64,000 nucleotides of DNA, from IMG/VR virus record IMGVR_UViG_3300049216_000317, positions 84,961-148,960 of that record. One strand, given 5' to 3'. Numbering within the stretch: the first letter of the stretch is position 1; each line of letters begins with the position of its first letter. This document shows positions 43,807-62,529 of this stretch, one piece after another. A model generated the notes under the pieces. It did no database searches. It saw only the letters and a list, made by a program, of their open reading frames with translations, and was not told the origin of the DNA. The translations under genes and the position numbers were made by a program. This DNA comes from a virus.

Positions 43807-44352
43807 TCATGCGCTAAGGGGGTTGCCCCAATCAACCATTTTGTTCTTCAAACTTGCTTGGTTCTCGTGGAATTCAACGTAAATCATCGTATTAGCTATG
43901 CTACGGTGGCCGAGAGTGTATTTCACCAAGCGAATATCCTTGGTCTTCTCATATAATTTTTGGGCAAAAGTATGGCGCAAAGAGTGGGTCTTCTTTTTGA
44001 CCGGACGATAGAGATTCCAAATCTGATTTAAACGTTTATAAGAGATGTTGAATGGTCGACCGGACTCGCGTGGGAGTGCCATAATTCGTTCAAAAAGCCA
44101 TTTAGGGATCGGGATGTTACGATCATCCGAACCCTTGATGCCCGTGATGTGAACGGTGCTCGTATCCGCATCGAAATCTTCCCATTTAACCAGGATCGCT
44201 TCCGTGCAGCGCGCGCCAGTCTGGGCCAAAAACCAAATCAGCGTCGTATCGCGAGGATTCTCTTTATGATATTTGGTCAGAGTTTCTTGCAACTGATCGC
44301 ATTCGCGATCCGAGAGAAATTTCTTAATCGACAGAGCATACCGTTTACTCAT
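43807..44352 (-). CDS. Minimal tyrosine recombinase
   Basis: The 181-residue protein is essentially only the catalytic domain: Arg48 (GARCTE), Lys73 (GIKGSDDR), His123/Arg126 (HSLRHTF), His149 (LGHRS) and nucleophile Tyr158 (MIYVEF) are all present. The N-terminal core-binding domain of normal integrases (~300-400 aa) is missing. It may resolve genome multimers or act at an att site; it sits next to the tRNA cluster but no att-like duplication was found by eye. Its start overlaps the upstream gene as ATGA. Confidence 0.85.
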   Translation of the reverse strand: MSKRYALSIKKFLSDRECDQLQETLTKYHKENPRDTTLIWFLAQTGARCTEAILVKWEDFDADTSTVHITGIKGSDDRNIPIPKWLFERIMALPRESGRPFNISYKRLNQIWNLYRPVKKKTHSLRHTFAQKLYEKTKDIRLVKYTLGHRSIANTMIYVEFHENQASLKNKMVDWGNPLSA

Positions 44353-44635: not shown

Positions 44636-44723
44636 AGAAGGTTGGGTGAGTGGTTGAAACCACCAGTCTTGAAAACTGGCGAACCGCAAGGTTCCGTGGG
44701 TTCGAATCCCACACCTTCTGCCA
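44636..44723 (+). tRNA. tRNA-Ser(TGA)
   Basis: Acceptor AGAAGGT pairs with ACCTTCT, discriminator G and encoded CCA. The anticodon stem-loop is CCAGT-CTTGAAA-ACTGG, giving anticodon TGA. A long variable arm (GAACCGCAAGGTTC) marks a class II tRNA. Confidence 0.93.
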
Positions 44724-44771
44724 ATTGATTGATACAAACTAATCTTAAAGTATCAGTTAATTGTAGTTTGT

Positions 44772-44847
44772 TGCGGGGTAGAGCAGTTGGTAGCTCGCTT
44801 GGCTCATAACCAAGAGGTCGCCGGTTCAAGTCCGGCCCCCGCTACCA
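44772..44847 (+). tRNA. tRNA-fMet(CAT), initiator-like
   Basis: Anticodon loop CTCATAA gives CAT. Position 1 (T) and position 72 (T) do not pair, and the D-stem has A11-T24; both are hallmarks of bacterial initiator tRNA. The anticodon stem has only two of the usual three consecutive G-C pairs (T29-A41 replaces one). CCA is encoded. Confidence 0.9.
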
Positions 44848-44854
44848 GTTTTCT

Positions 44855-44930
44855 GGGGGTGTAGCTCAGTTGGGAGAGCGCCAGCTTTGCAAGCTGGATG
44901 TCGCAGGTTCGATCCCTGTCACCTCCACCA
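44855..44930 (+). tRNA. tRNA-Ala(TGC)
   Basis: Acceptor GGGGGTG pairs with CACCTCC including the G3-T70 wobble that identifies alanine tRNA. Anticodon stem-loop CCAGC-TTTGCAA-GCTGG gives TGC. CCA is encoded. Confidence 0.95.
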
Positions 44931-45124
44931 CTTTTGTTCTTTGAAATTAGATTTTCGCGGGTAGATCAAAGTAGATCGCGGCACCATTACATAGCCGAGA
45001 TGAAGAGTAGCGTCCTTCCCCGCGAACCATTTTTCTCGATAAGGGCGCAAGCCCGCGTGAAGCCTTATGCTCGATGCCCGTATCGCTGCATAAGGATAAA
45101 GAGAAGCCAGAAACGGGCATTGTT
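44931..45124 (+). ncRNA. Structured non-coding spacer inside the tRNA cluster
   Basis: The spacer of 194 bases between tRNA-Ala and tRNA-Gln contains no credible ORF. It holds a GGGC-GCAA-GCCC tetraloop hairpin (45043-45054), an exact CTTATGC/GCATAAG pair (45064-45070, 45088-45094) and an exact TGCCCGT/ACGGGCA pair (45075-45081, 45113-45119). The last two would interleave, so they are alternative or pseudoknotted stems. It may be a small RNA or a decayed tRNA; no cloverleaf can be drawn. Confidence 0.35.
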
Positions 45125-45197
45125 GCGCTTTAGCCAAGCGGTAAGGCACCAGATTTTGATTCTGGCATCCCTGGTTCGATCCCAGGAAGCGCATCCA
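45125..45197 (+). tRNA. tRNA-Gln(TTG)
   Basis: Acceptor TGCGCTT pairs with AAGCGCA, discriminator T, encoded CCA. Anticodon stem-loop CCAGA-TTTTGAT-TCTGG gives TTG. Confidence 0.93.
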
Positions 45198-45210
45198 TTT
45201 TAGTTTTTGT

Positions 45211-45296
45211 GTAAGCGTGGGTGAGTGGCTAAAACCACCAGACTGTAAATCTGGGCTCTTCGGGGTTCGCAAGTTCAAATCTTGCCGCTTACACCA
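45211..45296 (+). tRNA. tRNA-Tyr(GTA)
   Basis: Acceptor GTAAGCG pairs with CGCTTAC. Anticodon stem-loop CCAGA-CTGTAAA-TCTGG gives GTA. A long variable arm marks class II. CCA is encoded. Confidence 0.93.
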
Positions 45297-45312
45297 TTTG
45301 ATTTTGTTTTGT

Positions 45313-45388
45313 GCGCATGTAACTCAGCTGGTAGAGTACCTGACTTCCACTCAGGATGCCGCAGGTTCGAGCCCTGTCATGCGCTCCA
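45313..45388 (+). tRNA. tRNA-Gly(TCC)
   Basis: Acceptor GCGCATG pairs with CATGCGC, discriminator T, encoded CCA. Anticodon stem-loop CCTGA-CTTCCAC-TCAGG gives TCC. Confidence 0.93.
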
Positions 45389-45403
45389 GTTTTTGTGTTT
45401 TGT

Positions 45404-45480
45404 CTAAGTATAGCTCAGTTTGGTAGAGCGCTTGGTTTGGGACCAAGAGGTCGTAGGTTCAAATCCTGCTACTTAGACCA
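45404..45480 (+). tRNA. tRNA-Pro(TGG)
   Basis: Acceptor CTAAGTA pairs with TACTTAG, discriminator A, encoded CCA. Anticodon stem-loop CTTGG-TTTGGGA-CCAAG gives TGG. Confidence 0.93.
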
Positions 45481-45493
45481 TTTTTGTTTTTGT

Positions 45494-45568
45494 TCGGCAG
45501 TAGCTCAGAGGTAGAGCTCACGACTGTTAATCGTGTGGTCGCATGTTCGATCCATGCCTGCCGAGCCA
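45494..45568 (+). tRNA. tRNA-Asn(GTT)
   Basis: Acceptor TCGGCAG pairs with CTGCCGA, discriminator G, encoded CCA. Anticodon stem-loop CACGA-CTGTTAA-TCGTG gives GTT. It is the last tRNA before the CCA-enzyme-like gene. Confidence 0.93.
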
Positions 45569-45609: not shown

Positions 45610-46242
45610 ATGAATAATCTTCTTCTTCAGCTTTTCCTCATAGTACAAAATCGTTCAGCCAATACCTGGCTTGTCGGCGGATGCGTGCGCGATCTTATTC
45701 TTGGCATGGCACCGAAGGATTATGACATCGTCACTGACGCCAATATCGAAGAATTAAAAGAAGAATTCTTGGCCAATGGATGGGCCGTCAATGCTGTTGG
45801 CGAGAACTTCCTGGTCTATGCCGTCTCCAAAGAACACCAGCAATTTGAAATTGCCAATTTCCGCAAAGAATATGGGTTTACAGATGGGCGACGCCCCGAT
45901 CACGTAGAGATTGGAACCCTAGAGGAAGATGCCCAGCGCCGGGATTTCACGGTGAATTCAATTTATTGGAATCCAATTACCAACGAGTACAAAGATCCAA
46001 ATAATGGCAAGAAGGATCTCCAAAACAAGGTGCTGCGCTTTATTGGAAAGCCCAAAGACCGCATCAAGGAAGACTACTTACGCGTCTTCCGATTCTATCG
46101 TTTTTTAAGCAAATTTAAGAAAATCGGCATGGAGGCTGAACCCCGCTCCCTTTCAGCTTGCCGCGAAATGTTTCGCGAAGCCTATGGGAAAACCAATCCG
46201 GAGCGGGTTCGTATGGAAATCGAAAGAATGAGCCTTACTTAA
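45610..46242 (+). CDS. CCA-adding enzyme/poly(A) polymerase head-domain protein
   Basis: The 210-residue protein has the class II nucleotidyltransferase signature: GGCVRD (residues 23-28), the catalytic DYD (37-39), RRDFTVNSI (110-118), a DPNNGKKDL turn and RIKEDYLRVFRFYRF near 155-175. In CCA-adding enzymes these bind the tRNA end and NTPs. The C-terminal body and tail domains of ~200 residues are missing, so substrate use may differ. It lies directly downstream of eight tRNAs, which supports a tRNA 3'-end repair role even though those tRNAs encode CCA. Confidence 0.8.
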   Translation: MNNLLLQLFLIVQNRSANTWLVGGCVRDLILGMAPKDYDIVTDANIEELKEEFLANGWAVNAVGENFLVYAVSKEHQQFEIANFRKEYGFTDGRRPDHVEIGTLEEDAQRRDFTVNSIYWNPITNEYKDPNNGKKDLQNKVLRFIGKPKDRIKEDYLRVFRFYRFLSKFKKIGMEAEPRSLSACREMFREAYGKTNPERVRMEIERMSLT

Positions 46243-50678: not shown

Positions 50679-51323
50679 TTAAGAGTGGTTCGGCACTAAA
50701 AACCATTTCTCCATCAAGCGGATGACCTCAAAGGCTCCAAGAATCATTGATTGCTCTTTCTCTGGCGTTATGTAAGGAAGTAGGCTCTTCTTCATTCCGG
50801 CAGCATGAGACTCTTCAGCAACCATATGATGGATGATGTACTTTTCTAAGTCTGACGAAATCGGCACCATGTTGTGGTTACAGTATTTTTCGACAAGAAC
50901 GCGAAGCCCCTGAAACTCAAAAACCGCCGTTGCCTCTAAAGCGTAAAGCGCGCCCGCGACATGATCTGGACTACCAAAGACAAAGATGTCGGCCATGGAT
51001 TCAAGAAATCGCTTTGTGTCCAAGTTAGGGTGGTGAAGATCAGTTAAAATGCCAACCTTTGCATAACCATCGCGCATGATCGCCAAATGAGGCTTCCCTC
51101 GCGTATGTTTGCCCAATTCTTCAGCAATATTTTCCAACACTTCTTCACGCAAGGCCGGGTATTCGTAAATTCGCGTCGCTGCGGCAATAAGAAATTGAAT
51201 CGCACGATACGAAAATGCGCTATACTCAAGGAGCGCAGCCTTGGCTTCTTCTGCCGGAATTCTAGCCAAAGGATGAGAGGCCAAATTTCTGCGAATTCTT
51301 TGGTCAATAACATCAAAAATCAC
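50679..51323 (-). CDS. Haem-oxygenase-like diiron protein (PqqC/TenA superfamily)
   Basis: The 214-residue all-helical protein has the spaced ligands expected of haem-oxygenase-like diiron oxidases: a Glu in LLEYSAF, Glu and His in ENIAEELGKHTRG, Glu in LEATAVFEFQG, and Glu/His in HMVAEESHAAG. Relatives include the DUF3865 and UndA/PqqC-like enzymes. TenA (thiamine salvage) shares the fold but not these ligands. It is the last gene of the ABC operon, overlapping the ATPase stop by four bases, so it probably acts on the transported substrate or a linked metal. Confidence 0.65.
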   Translation of the reverse strand: MIFDVIDQRIRRNLASHPLARIPAEEAKAALLEYSAFSYRAIQFLIAAATRIYEYPALREEVLENIAEELGKHTRGKPHLAIMRDGYAKVGILTDLHHPNLDTKRFLESMADIFVFGSPDHVAGALYALEATAVFEFQGLRVLVEKYCNHNMVPISSDLEKYIIHHMVAEESHAAGMKKSLLPYITPEKEQSMILGAFEVIRLMEKWFLVPNHS

Positions 51324-52168
51324 GACGGCTCCATCATATAATCCTCAAGCTCATTCACCATGCGCTGAAATTCGGGTGTCTTTTTTAATTCGGGCGCTTT
51401 TTGAAGGAACGGCACGATGACCTTGCGCTTCAAAGTAGACGGCGAGCCACCCATAACCCAAATTTCGTCGGCCAAATAGACGGCTTCTGAAATGTCGTGA
51501 GTAACTGAGATGATTGTGGAAGCGTATTCGTTACGACTGCGGGCACTCAAAGTAAGAGCAAGCGCAATTGAATGAATCGAGTCCTGCATTTTGAGTCGTG
51601 TTTTGACGTCTAGAGCTCCGAAAGGTTCGTCCATTAATAAAATCTTCGGATTAGCCAAAAGTGATCGAGCAATTGCTACGCGCTGAAGTTGACCCCCAGA
51701 CAAATTTGGATAAATGGCGTACTTTTCCTCTTGGCCCTCTAGGCCGACCAGTCTAAGCATTTCAAAGGCGCGATCACGCGATTCTTTGTCTGATATTCCC
51801 TGGTAGCGCGCACCGATTTGAATGTTTTCAAGGACCGATAGCCAAGGCAACGACGAATAGCGCTGAAAAACCATTCCGACTCGGTCGTTTTCCGTTCGCG
51901 GTAGACCATGCATAAGAACCTGCCCAGCGGTTGGCTTTTGCAAACCCGCTATATAGCGCAGGAGCGTCGACTTGCCACAACCTGACGGCCCTAGAATCGC
52001 AACAAAGCGTCCTTTATTGGTTGGATCGTCTATTCGCAAGTTCAGGTCATTGAAAATCGTGATTTTGCCCTTGTCATAAGTCTGGGAGATGCCCCGAAGT
52101 TCAATCGTCGGAATAACTTCAGTAGGTGCTGTAGGTGGCGAATTGATGTCGGCAAAAAGGTTAATCAC
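51320..52168 (-). CDS. ABC transporter ATPase (SsuB/TauB type)
   Basis: The GTG at 52168 overlaps the permease TGA (GTGA), giving 282 residues. Walker A GPSGCGKST (60-68), Q-loop, signature LSGGQ (156-160), Walker B ILLMDE (176-181), D-loop GALD and H-loop His224 are all intact, so it should hydrolyse ATP. It is closest in style to nitrate/sulfonate/taurine importers. It powers the permease encoded next to it. Confidence 0.92.
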   Translation of the reverse strand: MINLFADINSPPTAPTEVIPTIELRGISQTYDKGKITIFNDLNLRIDDPTNKGRFVAILGPSGCGKSTLLRYIAGLQKPTAGQVLMHGLPRTENDRVGMVFQRYSSLPWLSVLENIQIGARYQGISDKESRDRAFEMLRLVGLEGQEEKYAIYPNLSGGQLQRVAIARSLLANPKILLMDEPFGALDVKTRLKMQDSIHSIALALTLSARSRNEYASTIISVTHDISEAVYLADEIWVMGGSPSTLKRKVIVPFLQKAPELKKTPEFQRMVNELEDYMMEPS

Positions 52169-52956
52169 TCGGCCTCCAAATGCTTGAACTTGAAGGCCCA
52201 CTTATCAAAAAGAATCGCCAGCTTGTCCTGAATCATGCCAACGACAATGATAACCGCAAGGATACCAAAAACCTTATCCACGCGTGATTGGCGAGCAGCC
52301 GTGTAGGCCAACGCACCTATTCCGCCATTCCCCTTGTTAATCATTTCGGCGACGATAATGTACGTCCACGAGATCGCAACCAAGACTCGAATATCGTCAG
52401 AGATTTTTGCCAGGACGGCTGGAATAAAAATAGATTTGATTGTCTGCCATTTGTTAGCGCCAAGTGTGTACGCCATTTCGACGTAAACGTCGTCAACTTC
52501 TTGCACGCGCTGGACAACTACGGGCAATAGGTAAACGGAGATCCCGAAAGCTAAAAACTGGACCTTCATCGTGTTCATGATACCGAACCAAGCAATAAAG
52601 AGTCCCGTGATCGCAGTCAGGGGCAGAAAGCGAACGGCGCCAAGGTATTCTTTGAACATTTCTCGAAAGAAGGGGAAGAGCCCGATAGCAAAACCAACCG
52701 GAATACAAAAAGCGATTGCTTCAGCATAACCAAGAAGGTTGATGTAAATTGAGTACCAAAGATTTCCCAGAAGACCGTCTTGTAAGAATAACTCGCCGAA
52801 AGAGCTTACAACTTCCGTGGGAGTAGGAAGCAGGGCTGACGAAATCAGATTTAAGCGCCCAATGGCTTCCCAAACAAAAAGAATCACGACAAAGCCGCCC
52901 CACTGAATCAGCAGGGCGGTCTTGCGCTCAACTTTACCACGTAAAGTAAAGAGCAT
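52165..52956 (-). CDS. ABC transporter inner-membrane permease (SsuC/TauC type)
   Basis: The 263-residue protein has about six membrane spans and the EAA coupling loop (EMAYTLGANKWQTIKSIFIP) that contacts the ATPase. The size and fold match BPD_transp_1 permeases of type I importers for sulfonate, taurine or pyrimidine precursors. It is coupled to the ATPase by a GTGA overlap and follows the binding protein by two bases. Confidence 0.9.
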   Translation of the reverse strand: MLFTLRGKVERKTALLIQWGGFVVILFVWEAIGRLNLISSALLPTPTEVVSSFGELFLQDGLLGNLWYSIYINLLGYAEAIAFCIPVGFAIGLFPFFREMFKEYLGAVRFLPLTAITGLFIAWFGIMNTMKVQFLAFGISVYLLPVVVQRVQEVDDVYVEMAYTLGANKWQTIKSIFIPAVLAKISDDIRVLVAISWTYIIVAEMINKGNGGIGALAYTAARQSRVDKVFGILAVIIVVGMIQDKLAILFDKWAFKFKHLEAE

Positions 52957-52958
52957 GC

Positions 52959-54506
52959 TTACTCCGATATTAATTCAAAATCCGTGCGGCGATTTTTAGC
53001 GCGTCCATCAGGAGATTGGTTGTCCGAGACAGGCTTGTCGGGACCATTACCAACAACCACAAAACGGTTGTGATCAAAGTGATACTCTTGAGCCAAGAAT
53101 GAAGCGACGGCTTTAGCGCGAGCCAAAGAAAGTTGCTTGTTCACTTCTGTCGAGCCAGTCGAATCCGTGTTGCCTTCAATACGCACGCGCGAGTGCGAGA
53201 AGCCTTTGGCGACATCGCCAAACTTGGCGCTGATCAGGTATTTCGAGTTTTCATCCAGCTTTGCCGATCCCGTTGGGAAGGTGATCGTCACGCGCTTTGT
53301 AGCAAACGCAGGTGCCGTCACAGCCGATTGAGTTGGGGCGGTGAAGGTCTTTGCACCTTCAGCTAAGTTCTCTGCGCCTGGAAGCGTTGTGCCCGAAATC
53401 AACGACGAGTCGTAAATTTGACGCCAGTCTGGAAGTTTCGTCGTGACGACTCCAACCTGGGTGTAAAGATCCGACATTTTGTTGTAAATCGACTCGCCAG
53501 TGACACCGTTGCCTTGCGCTAAACCGAAAAACACTTGGTTATCTCCAAGGGTCGCAAGCCGCGCATTCGAAATGGCTTTAGCCGCTTCTGCCGGTGAAAT
53601 GTTAAGGCCTTGAGCCAAAATCTCGGCTGCTTTTGCTGCCGCCTGGGGGTTTGAGTTAATCTCGGCAGCACCAATCATCCAGCCTTCGAAAAGTTCGCGA
53701 AGCTCGGTTTTGTGTGCTTGCAGGTACTCATCTTTCACAAAGAAACCGTCAGCAATAATGTTTGACGCTTCTTTGGTGTTTTTCAGAATTTTAGAGCCAG
53801 CAACCGTCTTTACGCAGTCTTGGTCATCTGGCGACCAAACAACTGCTGCATCAACTTTACCCGCTTTGAACATTTGCGCCGCAGCGACTGCCGAATCCGT
53901 CTGAACAAGGGTAATGTCCGAAGGTTTCATGTCGGCAGCGTCGAGCATCCAGAGAAGGAACGTATGAGAAGGCGTGCCGTAAGCAGCTGCGATCTTCATG
54001 CCTTTCAAATCATTGACCGAATTGATGCCACGACGCGATACGATAGCATCGCCTCCACGAGACCAGTCAGCCTGAAAGATCAGCTTTGGATTGAAGCGGC
54101 CATAACCGCCTACTTCCGTCGGGAACGAATCGACTGTTGTCCAGAGCACATCGACTTGATCTGCCTTCCATGCATCACGCGATGAGGCATAATCATCGTT
54201 CAGCACGAACTGGACTTTCAGCCCGTATTTAGTGAAGTAGCGTGAGTTCTCGGAAGCCTTAAAGCCATTGTTAAAGTATTCACCGCCTGCATAGCCGCCC
54301 CAGGTTACGACGCCGACACGGATCACTCCGGGCTCGCGAGGCTCTGGTTTGGTAGCGTTTGCAGCCGTTGTAACCTTAGCTACCATTTCGGGATGCGCAT
54401 CTCGAAAGGCTTTCAGGCCAAAGACTCCCGCTCCGGCAACTGCCGCAACGATCAAAAGCTTGGCAAACAAAGTTGCCCGTCCATTTTCATTATTTAGCGC
54501 GTTCAT
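52959..54506 (-). CDS. Membrane-anchored substrate-binding protein fused to OmpA domain
   Basis: Residues ~12-32 are a membrane anchor with no clear cleavage site. Residues ~60-340 form an NMT1/SsuA-like periplasmic binding domain (RVGVVTWGGYAGGEYF, VDVLWTTVDSFP, GMKIAAAYGTPSH, AGKVDAAVVWSPDD). Residues ~395-515 are an OmpA-like peptidoglycan-binding domain (RVRIEGNTDSTGS, LARAKAVASFL, GRAKNRRTDFEL). The fusion would tether the importer to the cell wall. The ligand cannot be read from sequence. It overlaps the previous gene by four bases. Confidence 0.85.
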   Translation of the reverse strand: MNALNNENGRATLFAKLLIVAAVAGAGVFGLKAFRDAHPEMVAKVTTAANATKPEPREPGVIRVGVVTWGGYAGGEYFNNGFKASENSRYFTKYGLKVQFVLNDDYASSRDAWKADQVDVLWTTVDSFPTEVGGYGRFNPKLIFQADWSRGGDAIVSRRGINSVNDLKGMKIAAAYGTPSHTFLLWMLDAADMKPSDITLVQTDSAVAAAQMFKAGKVDAAVVWSPDDQDCVKTVAGSKILKNTKEASNIIADGFFVKDEYLQAHKTELRELFEGWMIGAAEINSNPQAAAKAAEILAQGLNISPAEAAKAISNARLATLGDNQVFFGLAQGNGVTGESIYNKMSDLYTQVGVVTTKLPDWRQIYDSSLISGTTLPGAENLAEGAKTFTAPTQSAVTAPAFATKRVTITFPTGSAKLDENSKYLISAKFGDVAKGFSHSRVRIEGNTDSTGSTEVNKQLSLARAKAVASFLAQEYHFDHNRFVVVGNGPDKPVSDNQSPDGRAKNRRTDFELISE

Positions 54507-56512: not shown

Positions 56513-56956
56513 TTACAATTCGCCATTGTATCGTTCGACGAGCCGAATGGCCGAAGAAGAAATATGGACCAGTGAGCGGTCAGATATGAAATAAACAAAT
56601 GGGATCTTTATGCCGAGATCCTCATTCCAGTATTGCTGCGTTTGTTCGGCAGCAAGATCTTGAGCATTCCTTAGACCTCGAATGACCGCAACGGCTAAGG
56701 GTACAGTCTCAAGGTAGTCGCGCAAGAGACCATGCCAAACGTTCGCGACGTTTACTCTTGAAACAAGACTTGGCACGATCGAGCATCTAATGGCGTTTCC
56801 CAGACCATGTAACTGAGAATTGGCAACGTACAGTTTCTCAGGATTTTTCATAGGCACAACATAAACCTTGTCAAAGGTCTTGAGCGCCTTTGTCAGGATG
56901 TCGGCATGGCCTTTGTGCCAAGGATTAAATGATCCAGGGTAAATGGCAATTCTCAT
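56513..56956 (-). CDS. coaD-like: CoaD-like phosphopantetheine adenylyltransferase homologue
   Basis: The 147-residue protein has the nucleotidyltransferase start YPGSFNPWHKGHADIL (canonical GSFDPxTxGHxD), then VAVIRGLRNAQDLAAEQ and the SSSAIR end. These are the PPAT signature motifs that transfer AMP from ATP to 4'-phosphopantetheine in coenzyme A synthesis. The Thr in the first motif is replaced by Trp, so substrate may have changed. It is coupled to the HTH gene by ATGA. Confidence 0.75.
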   Translation of the reverse strand: MRIAIYPGSFNPWHKGHADILTKALKTFDKVYVVPMKNPEKLYVANSQLHGLGNAIRCSIVPSLVSRVNVANVWHGLLRDYLETVPLAVAVIRGLRNAQDLAAEQTQQYWNEDLGIKIPFVYFISDRSLVHISSSAIRLVERYNGEL

Positions 56957-57204: not shown

Positions 57205-57708
57205 TTAGAAACTAATTGCGTTCTCGCAAGCAGTCGTGCCCATAGCGATCAATGACGAAACCGTTGCCGAAGGCGAACACTGCCATGCGGCTGGAATCGC
57301 GCCCGAGAAAACCGCAGTCTCCAAAGACGTGATTACAAGAGGGCAAGCGACGTTTCCGATAACGCCCTTTTCATTTGCGACTTTAAGGTTTTTGCCTTTT
57401 TTCGCTTCTGCCAAAGTTTGTTTCGCAGCGGCCAAAGTCGTGCAAAATTTAATGCCGATGCCGGAAACTGCTTTTTGAATGTCGGCAGAAATTGCCGCAG
57501 TTCCAGTGCAACCAGCTGTCGATGCGAATGCCGCAGCGATTCCAGTCGTGACAGCGGTTTCCGCATCACACGCAGCCGACGGAGCGGGGGCCGGTGTAGG
57601 CGCAGGCGTTGTGCCAGGGGCGGGAGTTGGTGTCGGTGCCGGATTGCTGCTGGTGCTGCTGCAACCGACGAAGCCAACGAGGGCAAGTGCTAAAAGGATC
57701 GTTTTCAT
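57205..57708 (-). CDS. Lipoprotein with Pro-rich linker, 167 aa
   Basis: Signal peptide MKTILLALALVGFVGC has a lipobox ending at Cys16. Residues ~22-44 are Pro/Ala/Thr repeats (PTPTPAPGTTPAPTPAP), then a domain with six further Cys. It may be exposed at the envelope as a superinfection-exclusion type lipoprotein; no family is recognised. AAGGAG precedes the ATG. Confidence 0.6.
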   Translation of the reverse strand: MKTILLALALVGFVGCSSTSSNPAPTPTPAPGTTPAPTPAPAPSAACDAETAVTTGIAAAFASTAGCTGTAAISADIQKAVSGIGIKFCTTLAAAKQTLAEAKKGKNLKVANEKGVIGNVACPLVITSLETAVFSGAIPAAWQCSPSATVSSLIAMGTTACENAISF

Positions 57709-57759
57709 TTTTGTCTCCTTGAAAGACGTTTGTTATTGGGACCTAAAACCAAAAATCAA

Positions 57760-57837
57760 TGGCGGAATTGGTGGGATTCGAACCCACGATCCCCTGCTCG
57801 ACAGGCAGGCGCATTAGGCCAACTATGCTACAACTCC
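57760..57837 (-). tRNA. tRNA-Asp(GTC)
   Basis: On the minus strand acceptor GGAGTTG pairs with CAATTCC (one G-T), discriminator G, encoded CCA. Anticodon loop CTGTCGA gives GTC. The 5' end lies one base after the tmRNA 3' end, so both are made from one precursor. Confidence 0.92.
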
Positions 57838-57838
57838 A

Positions 57839-58236
57839 TGGTGGACCTGGGGAGAATCGAACTCCCGTCCGCAAAAGCCTCCACTAAAGATCTACGTGCG
57901 TAGCGTGTTTAAATTCCCGCCGGACGGGGACGTTGGCTTGCGCTAACATCCTCCACCAAGTTTTTACGAGTAACTCTCTCGCGACGTTTTACCCTCCGTC
58001 GGAGGTGGCCGTCTTTACAGCGCGAGGCCCTCTGTTTTTTGCCCTTCCTTGGTAACAAGGTTTGGAAGGACGTACCCCGCCTTTGGGTTTTAAGGCCCGC
58101 AGGAAACCACAGCGGTTAGGCTGCGGCTTGTTCGAAATCAGCGTCGATTACGCTTTTGCATCTTTTTAAACCGGCCTGATGCTCCGGTACACGCACTCTA
58201 GATTTGGATCTTCCACGTCGAAACCATGTCAGGCCC
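57839..58236 (-). ncRNA. ssrA: tmRNA, complete
   Basis: The minus strand begins GGGCCTGACATGGTTTCGAC, a classical tmRNA 5' end, and finishes with GTTCGATTCTCCCCAGGTCC-ACCA. The acceptor pairs GGGCCTG with CAGGTCC including the G3-T70 pair needed for alanine charging. The tag reading frame at 58116-58145, after CGTAATC, reads DADFEQAAA then TAA. Several pseudoknot-like stems fill the rest. With the tRNAs it could rescue ribosomes stalled by host mRNA decay and tag products for proteolysis. Confidence 0.93.
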
Positions 58237-58318
58237 ATTAACAGGTATTGGAGCGGGACTTGTTTCTAAAAGCACGTAAAATCTTCTCATAGCGCGAAGC
58301 ATTATGTTGGACTTTTAT

Positions 58319-58357
58319 GCTAATAGCGGTAAAAATCAGTGTAATTAAGCTATTAGC
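58319..58357 (+). promoter_or_regulatory. 9-bp inverted repeat before the DUF6915-like gene
   Basis: GCTAATAGC (58319-58327) and GCTATTAGC (58349-58357) are exact reverse complements 21 bases apart, nine bases before the ATG at 58367. The 3' arm runs into the GCGGGG that may be the RBS. The intergenic region also holds the tmRNA promoter in the other direction. Confidence 0.45.
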
Positions 58358-58366
58358 GGGGTTGGC

Positions 58367-58744
58367 ATGAAGCCTATGTTGCATGCATTGGTGAGCGCAA
58401 AAAAGTTCGGCGGGAAGCCAGAAGACTATATGAAGGTCCATGATTTCATCGACTCAAGCAAAGCCCACATGCCCGATGTCCGGCACCGCGCGCTTCTCCA
58501 TTCCTCGTTCGGCATTTATATGGTCGAACAAGTTTTCGGCCACGAGCTAGAAAACTCAGAAGGTCTTATGGTCCAAATTCGTGACATTGCCGAAGAACAC
58601 GTCTTGTCAGACCTTGGATTTATTCCTACAGTACAAGACTATTTCAAGCACATGCCAATTCAAAATTGGTTTGGTGGCAAAGTAAAAGGTCGCAAACAGA
58701 CATACAGGAGAAAACTATGGGACTCGAAACCATCAAAGGATTGA
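58367..58744 (+). CDS. DUF6915-like conserved phage protein
   Basis: The 125-residue protein reads HALVSAKKFGGKPEDYMKVHDFID, split by short loops, then SKAHMPDVRHRALLHSSFG and VRDIAEEHVLSDLGFIPT-like text. This His-rich helical domain is widespread in phages, with no established activity that I can name. The His/Asp spacing could bind a metal. It overlaps the next start by 28 bases. Confidence 0.6.
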   Translation: MKPMLHALVSAKKFGGKPEDYMKVHDFIDSSKAHMPDVRHRALLHSSFGIYMVEQVFGHELENSEGLMVQIRDIAEEHVLSDLGFIPTVQDYFKHMPIQNWFGGKVKGRKQTYRRKLWDSKPSKD

Positions 58745-61322: not shown

Positions 61323-62116
61323 TATAAGCTAAATTCGCCTTCGCCACGCATACGGACCGTGTAAAAATCATCAGCAAAGTTGTTAATATAGGCATCCGGA
61401 ATGTAGAAGTAACCACTTCCTTCAATCCCCCAACCTAATCCCCAGCTGTTTCGGTAAATCCACATGTCTTTCGATGCATCATACCCTACACAAAGGATAG
61501 CATGGCCACCTTCTGGCTGTTCGTTAGCCGCAGGCATCGGCAAAACGCCAGTTTCTGCCGTTTCTTCAGACTGAATGCCTGAGAAGCAAGTGATACCCGT
61601 AAAGAAAGGGTAACCTGCCTGCAAACACTGAATGCGTTCGGCTTTACTTGCTAGGTAGTAGTAAGCCGCGCACTTGCGACGAGCGGCATCGCCATACACT
61701 TCAGCCGAAGGCGTAGTGTAAAGCGTGTCGGGGCTGTAAGGATAAAGGCTTTCCTGTGGAGCGCCCTTAGTCGTAAGCACTGTGGCGGCATCCTTAAGCG
61801 TTGTAACCCCTGCATCAGTCGGGATAGTGCCGTCTAAATAGCGCTCTTCACGATAGATGAAGTTTTCCGCCACTGGAACGAAGCTACCCTTGTTGATCTT
61901 CTTTTGCAGGAATTCATGCATGCCCGAAGACGCGAACGACGAGCACGAGCCTTCCTGACCTTGATCTTTTACTGGCGAACAAAGACTACGAAGATCCGGC
62001 GAGGGATTTGCGTTTGTTGCGTGCAAAGCCATGATGCTTTTATACTGGTAATCGCGAACGTCTTTTTTCGAAAAGACGTAGTTGAGCCGGTACTTTTGCC
62101 ATTTGGTTTGTTCCAT
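61322..62116 (-). CDS. Papain-like (C1 family) cysteine protease
   Basis: The 264-residue protein has the complete C1 set: oxyanion Gln52 and nucleophile Cys58 in DQGQEGSCSSFA, His205 in GGHAILCVGYD and Asn223 in YRNSWGLGWG. No signal or pro-peptide is seen, so it probably acts in the cytoplasm or in the particle. It is coupled with the 131-aa and DUF2135-like genes upstream. C1 proteases are rare in phages; a role in processing virion or host proteins is inference. Confidence 0.88.
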   Translation of the reverse strand: MEQTKWQKYRLNYVFSKKDVRDYQYKSIMALHATNANPSPDLRSLCSPVKDQGQEGSCSSFASSGMHEFLQKKINKGSFVPVAENFIYREERYLDGTIPTDAGVTTLKDAATVLTTKGAPQESLYPYSPDTLYTTPSAEVYGDAARRKCAAYYYLASKAERIQCLQAGYPFFTGITCFSGIQSEETAETGVLPMPAANEQPEGGHAILCVGYDASKDMWIYRNSWGLGWGIEGSGYFYIPDAYINNFADDFYTVRMRGEGEFSL

Positions 62117-62133
62117 GTTGTTCTCCTTGTTGA

Positions 62134-62529
62134 TTACAGCGAATCAGCCAGCTTGCGCAAATCTTCGAGAGAAGAACTGCCCAAAGCTTCGAGTTCTTTC
62201 TGTGCAACAAGCGCCAGGATCTGTTGCTTTTTCTCTTTGTTAGCTTTCGCTTGTGCTGCGCGCTCGTTCTCTTCCAGTCGAACGTCAATGATGTACTTGG
62301 CCAACTCAAATTTAAGCTGAGTGCCTTCGTCGTGCTTTGGAGTTTTCACCACGAAAGAAACGTCTTCCTCTTGTTTCAGCTTTCGATTTAAATCGCGCGC
62401 GATGGCATCCAGGCTTGCCTTCCCAGTGTTGCTTGTCAGCGGAAGGTCCCAAAGATCCTCTACACTCAACATGCCCGCAGGCGATTCAAAACGAAGTTTC
62501 AGACGGCTTGCTTTTGCGAAATCCAACAT
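62134..62529 (-). CDS. Hypothetical protein of the protease operon, 131 aa
   Basis: The protein has an N-terminal alpha-beta part (LKLRFESPAGMLSVEDLWDLP) and a charged helical C-terminus (ERAAQAKANKEKKQQILALVAQ). GGAG precedes the ATG. The 'SVEDLWDLPL' text recurs in phage hypotheticals beside tape or adhesion genes. Function unknown. Confidence 0.6.
   Translation of the reverse strand: MLDFAKASRLKLRFESPAGMLSVEDLWDLPLTSNTGKASLDAIARDLNRKLKQEEDVSFVVKTPKHDEGTQLKFELAKYIIDVRLEENERAAQAKANKEKKQQILALVAQKELEALGSSSLEDLRKLADSL

Follow-up and report, generated by a model that had tools for sequence, protein, structure and literature searches.

Several phages are known to carry tmRNA genes: a 2014 listing included ten (PMC4131195), and in a 2021 dataset tmRNA was present in 402 of 18,146 phage genomes (PMC9004378). 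Some of the huge phages with tmRNA encode SmpB as well (PMC7162821), the tRNA arrays of mycobacteriophages can include tmRNA (PMC5966550), and in mycobacteriophage Wildcat the tmRNA is the most highly expressed lytic gene (PMC7474061). Two-piece (permuted) tmRNAs occur in Melnitz, a phage that has a glutamine riboswitch (PMC9004378), and in many IMG/VR contigs, unlike the gene described here, which has the standard order.

The window analyzed here is a 64,000-nt stretch (positions 84961-148960) of the IMG/VR virus record IMGVR_UViG_3300049216_000317, which totals 164,531 bases. It contains, on the minus strand, a one-piece tmRNA gene (ssrA) of 398 nt (57839..58236; ARAGORN, Rfam RF00023) followed by a tRNA-Asp gene. 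Other phages are already known to have tmRNAs, to use tags of their own and to place a tRNA close behind the tmRNA; the tag sequence of this tmRNA, DADFEQAAA, is new. The tmRNAs of mycobacteriophages of the Nappy/Bxz1 group and Wildcat, and of Gordonia phages Orchid and Forza, likewise are one-piece, lie in or beside tRNA genes and encode private tags, and the acceptor stem of the Orchid tmRNA (GGGCCTG/CAGGTCC) is identical to that of the present one. However, the tags of Nappy, Orchid and Forza are 25-29 residues long, compared to 9 here, their tRNA neighbors are at least 26 nt away from the tmRNA, compared to the 1-nt spacer here, and the blastn similarity of the Orchid and Nappy genes to the present tmRNA is confined to about 30 nt at the 3' end. 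Four marine contigs (L130, L133, L134 and L141), judged to be T4-like from their tail and topoisomerase-like ORFs, also encode a one-piece tmRNA with a 9-residue tag that starts with Asp and ends in AA (DNAELAMAA), but the tRNA located 3-4 nt downstream is tRNA-Ala rather than tRNA-Asp. These contigs belong to another phage group, have a different acceptor stem and show no sign of a recent common origin with the present locus.

The tmRNA is complete, with all the main functional features kept. As a preliminary description of this DNA had claimed, it is full length: the RF00023 covariance model aligns from position 1 to 374 with 108.8 bits, against a gathering score of 47, and the E-value of 1.4e-41 over the whole model means that a chance match is not an issue. 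The G3-U70 pair and the encoded CCA, also claimed there, are both seen. In the ARAGORN structure, the acceptor stem GGGCCUG/CAGGUCC forms 7 of 7 pairs including G3-U70, the 5' part of the tRNA-like domain, with the acceptor strand that contains G3, spans 58210..58236 (minus strand), the 3' part, with the T arm, U70 and CCA, spans 57839..57877 (minus strand), and the 3' end ACCA is read directly from the genome. Of the pseudoknots, whose failure to align had been envisaged in the preliminary description, pseudoknot 1 is clear and pseudoknot 2 is likely. Pseudoknot 1 (58158..58188, minus strand; tmRNA positions 49-79), detected by a pseudoknot scan of the single sequence, consists of ACCGG (49-53) paired with CCGGU (63-67) and GCAUC (55-59) paired with GAUGC (75-79), and ends 12 nt upstream of the resume codon, which lies at tmRNA position 92. 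Immediately preceded by UAAUC, the tag reading frame identified by ARAGORN runs from GAC to TAA (58116..58145, minus strand); its 3' end forms a 10-pair helix, AAGCCGCAGC/GCUGUGGUUU (58104..58129, minus strand; stem listing and local fold), with the UAA stop codon in the loop. The probable pseudoknot 2 (58027..58071, minus strand) combines GUCCUUCC/GGAAGGGC, a computed stem, with CCUUGUU paired with AACAGAGG around one bulge, a stem found by eye. The scan and the stem listing yielded no assignment for pseudoknots 3 and 4. Although the best score in the pseudoknot scan was reached by only 4% of shuffles, this figure lends little support because the top-scoring candidate is not pseudoknot 1. The folding energy of the whole tmRNA is unremarkable (z -1.24), and the G+C content at the locus is slightly higher, 0.54 versus 0.476.

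The tag (gac-gct-gat-ttc-gaa-caa-gcc-gca-gcc-taa, DADFEQAAA, 9 residues) was reported by ARAGORN as 'Tag not identified'. It is absent, in the sequence context TANNC...TAA, from 84,980 species of bacteria and archaea represented by one genome each, so the identical host tag that had been considered in the preliminary description does not occur among these genomes, and it has no match in the 2.9 million viral contigs of IMG/VR. The tag had been called unusual, and with respect to its sequence it is, as far as these collections go; its length and small-residue end, in contrast, are ordinary. The commonest tmRNA tag length is 10 (PMC11915505), and the usual end is LAA, with an end variant such as AAV still degraded in E. 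coli, only more slowly (PMC9382460). Bacterial tmRNAs include 9-residue tags (ADENLAYAA) and tags ending in AAA (ANDNYELAAA, ADNEDYALAAA). Phage tags vary widely and differ in their ends (DNAELAMAA, ATDTDATVTDAEIEAFFNEEAAALV, ADDNVDADYVAAGIADVEAFLADSVLAKA). Because the AAV variant is still degraded and AAA-ending tags are ordinary, DADFEQAAA would, by analogy with these other ends, most likely still be a degradation signal, and an AAA end would most simply direct rescued peptides to host ClpXP, their usual destination.

The tmRNA (58236..57839) is separated from the tRNA-Asp(GTC) gene (57837..57760, minus strand; discriminator G, encoded CCA; ARAGORN, Rfam 67.8 bits) by the single T at 57838 on the transcribed strand, in agreement with the tandem with a one-base spacer noted previously. 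Both tRNAs and tmRNA obtain their 5' ends by RNase P cleavage. The further suggestion that a single RNase P cut would produce both mature ends does not hold: a cut at the 5' end of tRNA-Asp leaves one extra 3' U on the tmRNA, so that further trimming is needed, and the 5' end of the tmRNA requires a cut of its own. A spacer of this size is nothing unusual: of 112 pairs of neighboring tRNAs in the fetched phage loci (a convenience sample of partly related loci), 5 are also one base apart. A pattern search of IMG/VR for a tmRNA 3' end followed by a tRNA-like start within 12 nt yielded 13 contigs, in eight of which a one-piece tmRNA precedes a tRNA-Ala start (the tRNA of L136 extends beyond the end of the stored sequence); four of these eight have an ARAGORN tag, in every case DNAELAMAA, with a gap of 3-4 nt before the tRNA-Ala. 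Some other phages have tmRNA-to-tRNA gaps of 3-6 nt, which makes the 1-nt gap described here the tightest among those seen; together with the one-base tRNA spacers, these gaps indicate that tight tandems of RNA genes are ordinary in phages. Three other contigs from this search contain a 112-nt tmRNA form that consists of the tRNA-like domain only (Rfam; L135:1157-1268, L139:7504-7615, L140:2386-2497; minus strand), with a tRNA-Thr shortly downstream, and resembles the DS6A form.

Upstream, the tmRNA is separated by an intergenic region (58237..58366) from a divergent gene for a DUF6915/phrog_8143 protein (58367..58744, plus strand; Pfam, 142.9 bits), and the tmRNA promoter has to sit within this gap. 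No sigma-70 consensus was found there, and the promoter and terminator scans performed no better than on shuffled sequences. Downstream of the tRNA-Asp, a gene for a small predicted lipoprotein (MKTILLALALVGFVGCSS...; 57205..57708, minus strand), whose ATG lies 51 bases past the tRNA end, probably shares a transcript with the tmRNA-tRNA-Asp pair.

The record carries genes for a portal, a baseplate, a DnaE-type DNA polymerase and a helicase. The closest named phage is Myxococcus phage Mx1 for both the portal (46% identity) and the DNA polymerase (33% identity), and judging from these proteins, the record represents a large uncultured phage distantly related to Mx1. No tmRNA was found in 18 records whose portal or polymerase is related, of which five have lengths of 155-169 kb, so the gene looks like an accessory gain; a shared ancestral tmRNA locus was considered and rejected because portal-related phages lack tmRNA. 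Among 12 of these relatives and Mx1, the latter has 29 tRNA genes and every other one has 0 or at most 1. Two proteins encoded near the tmRNA were found in none of 13 relatives in a search that had no positive control. A close homologue of the tmRNA was not found either: when the tmRNA was searched by blastn together with tRNA-Asp, the hits in phages were confined to tRNA-Asp-like stretches, the matches of the tmRNA alone to phage records covered only about 30-40 nt at its 3' end and fell mostly within phage tmRNAs, and no plasmid record was matched. A host assignment from this 3' end (Lachnospiraceae and a few others) was rejected as a coincidence of the short conserved end.

Apart from the tmRNA locus, the window contains eight clustered tRNA genes, each of which encodes its CCA end (44636..45568, plus strand; ARAGORN), for a total of nine tRNAs with tRNA-Asp. 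Directly after the cluster comes a gene for the head domain of a nucleotidyltransferase similar to CCA-adding enzymes (45610..46242, plus strand; Pfam PolyA_pol, 117 bits) that contains the motifs GGCVRD and RRDFTVNSI, and an RtcB ligase is encoded elsewhere in the record. In the 164.5-kb record, possibly an incomplete genome, there is no SmpB (PF01668) match and no AAA_2 (ClpX-type) unfoldase, so the proteins of the host are needed, unless the SmpB gene lies in a portion of the genome that the record lacks.

We propose, with a probability of about 0.8, that the gene encodes a functional phage tmRNA, that it was gained by one member of an Mx1-like lineage within a small kit for the maintenance of translation (the nine tRNAs, the CCA-adding-like enzyme and RtcB), and that it rescues ribosomes by means of host factors. 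Most simply, this rescue would help the phage to sustain translation, alongside genes that replace or repair tRNA. Under this scenario, tmRNA and tRNA-Asp would probably be made as one shared precursor transcript, RNase P would cleave at the 5' end of each, and host 3' exonucleases would remove the extra 3' U from the tmRNA. In the next step, host alanyl-tRNA synthetase would charge the tmRNA via G3-U70, and host SmpB would bring it to stalled ribosomes, where the stalled peptide would gain Ala followed by DADFEQAAA; the released tagged product would most likely be passed to Clp or some other protease of the host. We assume here that the tmRNA is compatible with host SmpB and Clp. The gain for the phage would lie in the recycling of ribosomes during infection, when damage to mRNA and tRNA makes stalling frequent.

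Genes for tmRNA are common integration sites. Accordingly, the locus might be bacterial DNA within a viral contig, whether an assembly chimera, a transduced fragment or an attachment-site remnant, and an integrase-family gene at 43807-44352 and the elevated local G+C content could be seen in this light. We nevertheless find this origin very unlikely: phage-type genes flank the tmRNA on both sides in a viral record, which places it in the phage genome rather than in host DNA, the exact tag, in the context searched, is missing from the 84,980 genomes of bacteria and archaea, the similarity to phage records stops at the short 3' end and plasmids yield nothing, and an attachment remnant normally is a 3' fragment, whereas the whole gene is present here. 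The notion of a phage tmRNA with its own tag, put forward in the preliminary description, is thus supported, as far as the genomes searched go. A phage tmRNA could also serve chiefly to compete with the host tmRNA for SmpB or the charging enzyme and thereby lower host quality control, as the DS6A phage tmRNA, which has the tRNA-like domain only, inhibits the endogenous tmRNA in E. coli (PMC4131195, PMC11915505); a form reduced to this domain is present in other viral contigs as well. The present gene, in contrast, retains pseudoknot 1, the tag reading frame and the helix with the stop codon in its loop, none of which a decoy needs, and a primarily competitive role appears highly improbable.

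The fate of the tagged proteins could differ from the one proposed above if the tag diverts rescued peptides from normal host disposal, so that they are either spared or sent to phage ClpP-like proteases. DADFEQAAA resembles none of the tags found in the collections of bacteria and viruses examined, tag ends differ among phages, and the phage encodes two ClpP-family serine proteases (record positions 57481-58341, L007:17481-18341, and 61726-62367, L008:1726-2367), both with apparent Ser, His and Asp residues, as read by eye, and one with an N-terminal hydrophobic stretch. However, ClpP-like genes were found in 10 of the 12 records tested, including relatives that lack tmRNA; they occur in Mx1 as well as in every one of the nine viral relatives tested, with one in relative G040 detected at 252.8 bits. 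They are, then, a trait of the lineage that is not tied to the tag, and the proposed link between the two is weakened. Given also that the record shows no AAA_2 unfoldase and that ordinary bacteria have AAA-ending tags, we consider such diversion quite unlikely. There is an even slimmer chance that disposal is partly private, with the phage ClpP-like proteases, perhaps together with host ClpX, treating DADFEQAAA-tagged proteins differently and the co-transcribed tRNA-Asp supplying the Asp codons of the tag, including the resume codon GAC.

This locus, a likely ribosome-rescue gene dependent on host factors, extends the known phage tmRNAs by one that is structurally complete, has a new tag and belongs to a little-known phage lineage, and its very tight tmRNA-tRNA pair offers an easy test case for precursor processing. 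Tight tmRNA-tRNA pairs and tags unlike the bacterial ones examined here recur in unrelated phages, which raises the question of whether phage tags have been adapted to alter the fate of rescued proteins.

Several other genes of this phage are of separate interest. The window includes ABC transporter genes (51320-54506, minus strand) whose products are an ATPase, a permease and a fusion of an NMT1-like substrate-binding protein with an OmpA domain. A nicotinate/nicotinamide phosphoribosyltransferase-family protein (L006:15565-17058) and a cytidylyltransferase-like protein (window 56513-56956, minus strand) possibly form an NAD-restoring pair. The record also encodes, on the minus strand, a protein with an mCpol (minimal CRISPR polymerase) domain (L006:585-2057) and a Cpn60/TCP-1 family chaperonin (L007:6937-8706). 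Among the comparison sequences, Gordonia phage Orchid has a Pistol ribozyme match barely over the threshold upstream of tRNA-Leu and the tmRNA (L174:491-564, plus strand), a partial OLE RNA match (91.2 bits) lies within the tRNA cluster of another viral contig (L108:1800-1949, plus strand), and one 175-kb viral contig (L037) contains odd tRNA-like genes for which ARAGORN reads four-base or two-base anticodons, along with a tRNA with the anticodon CTA.
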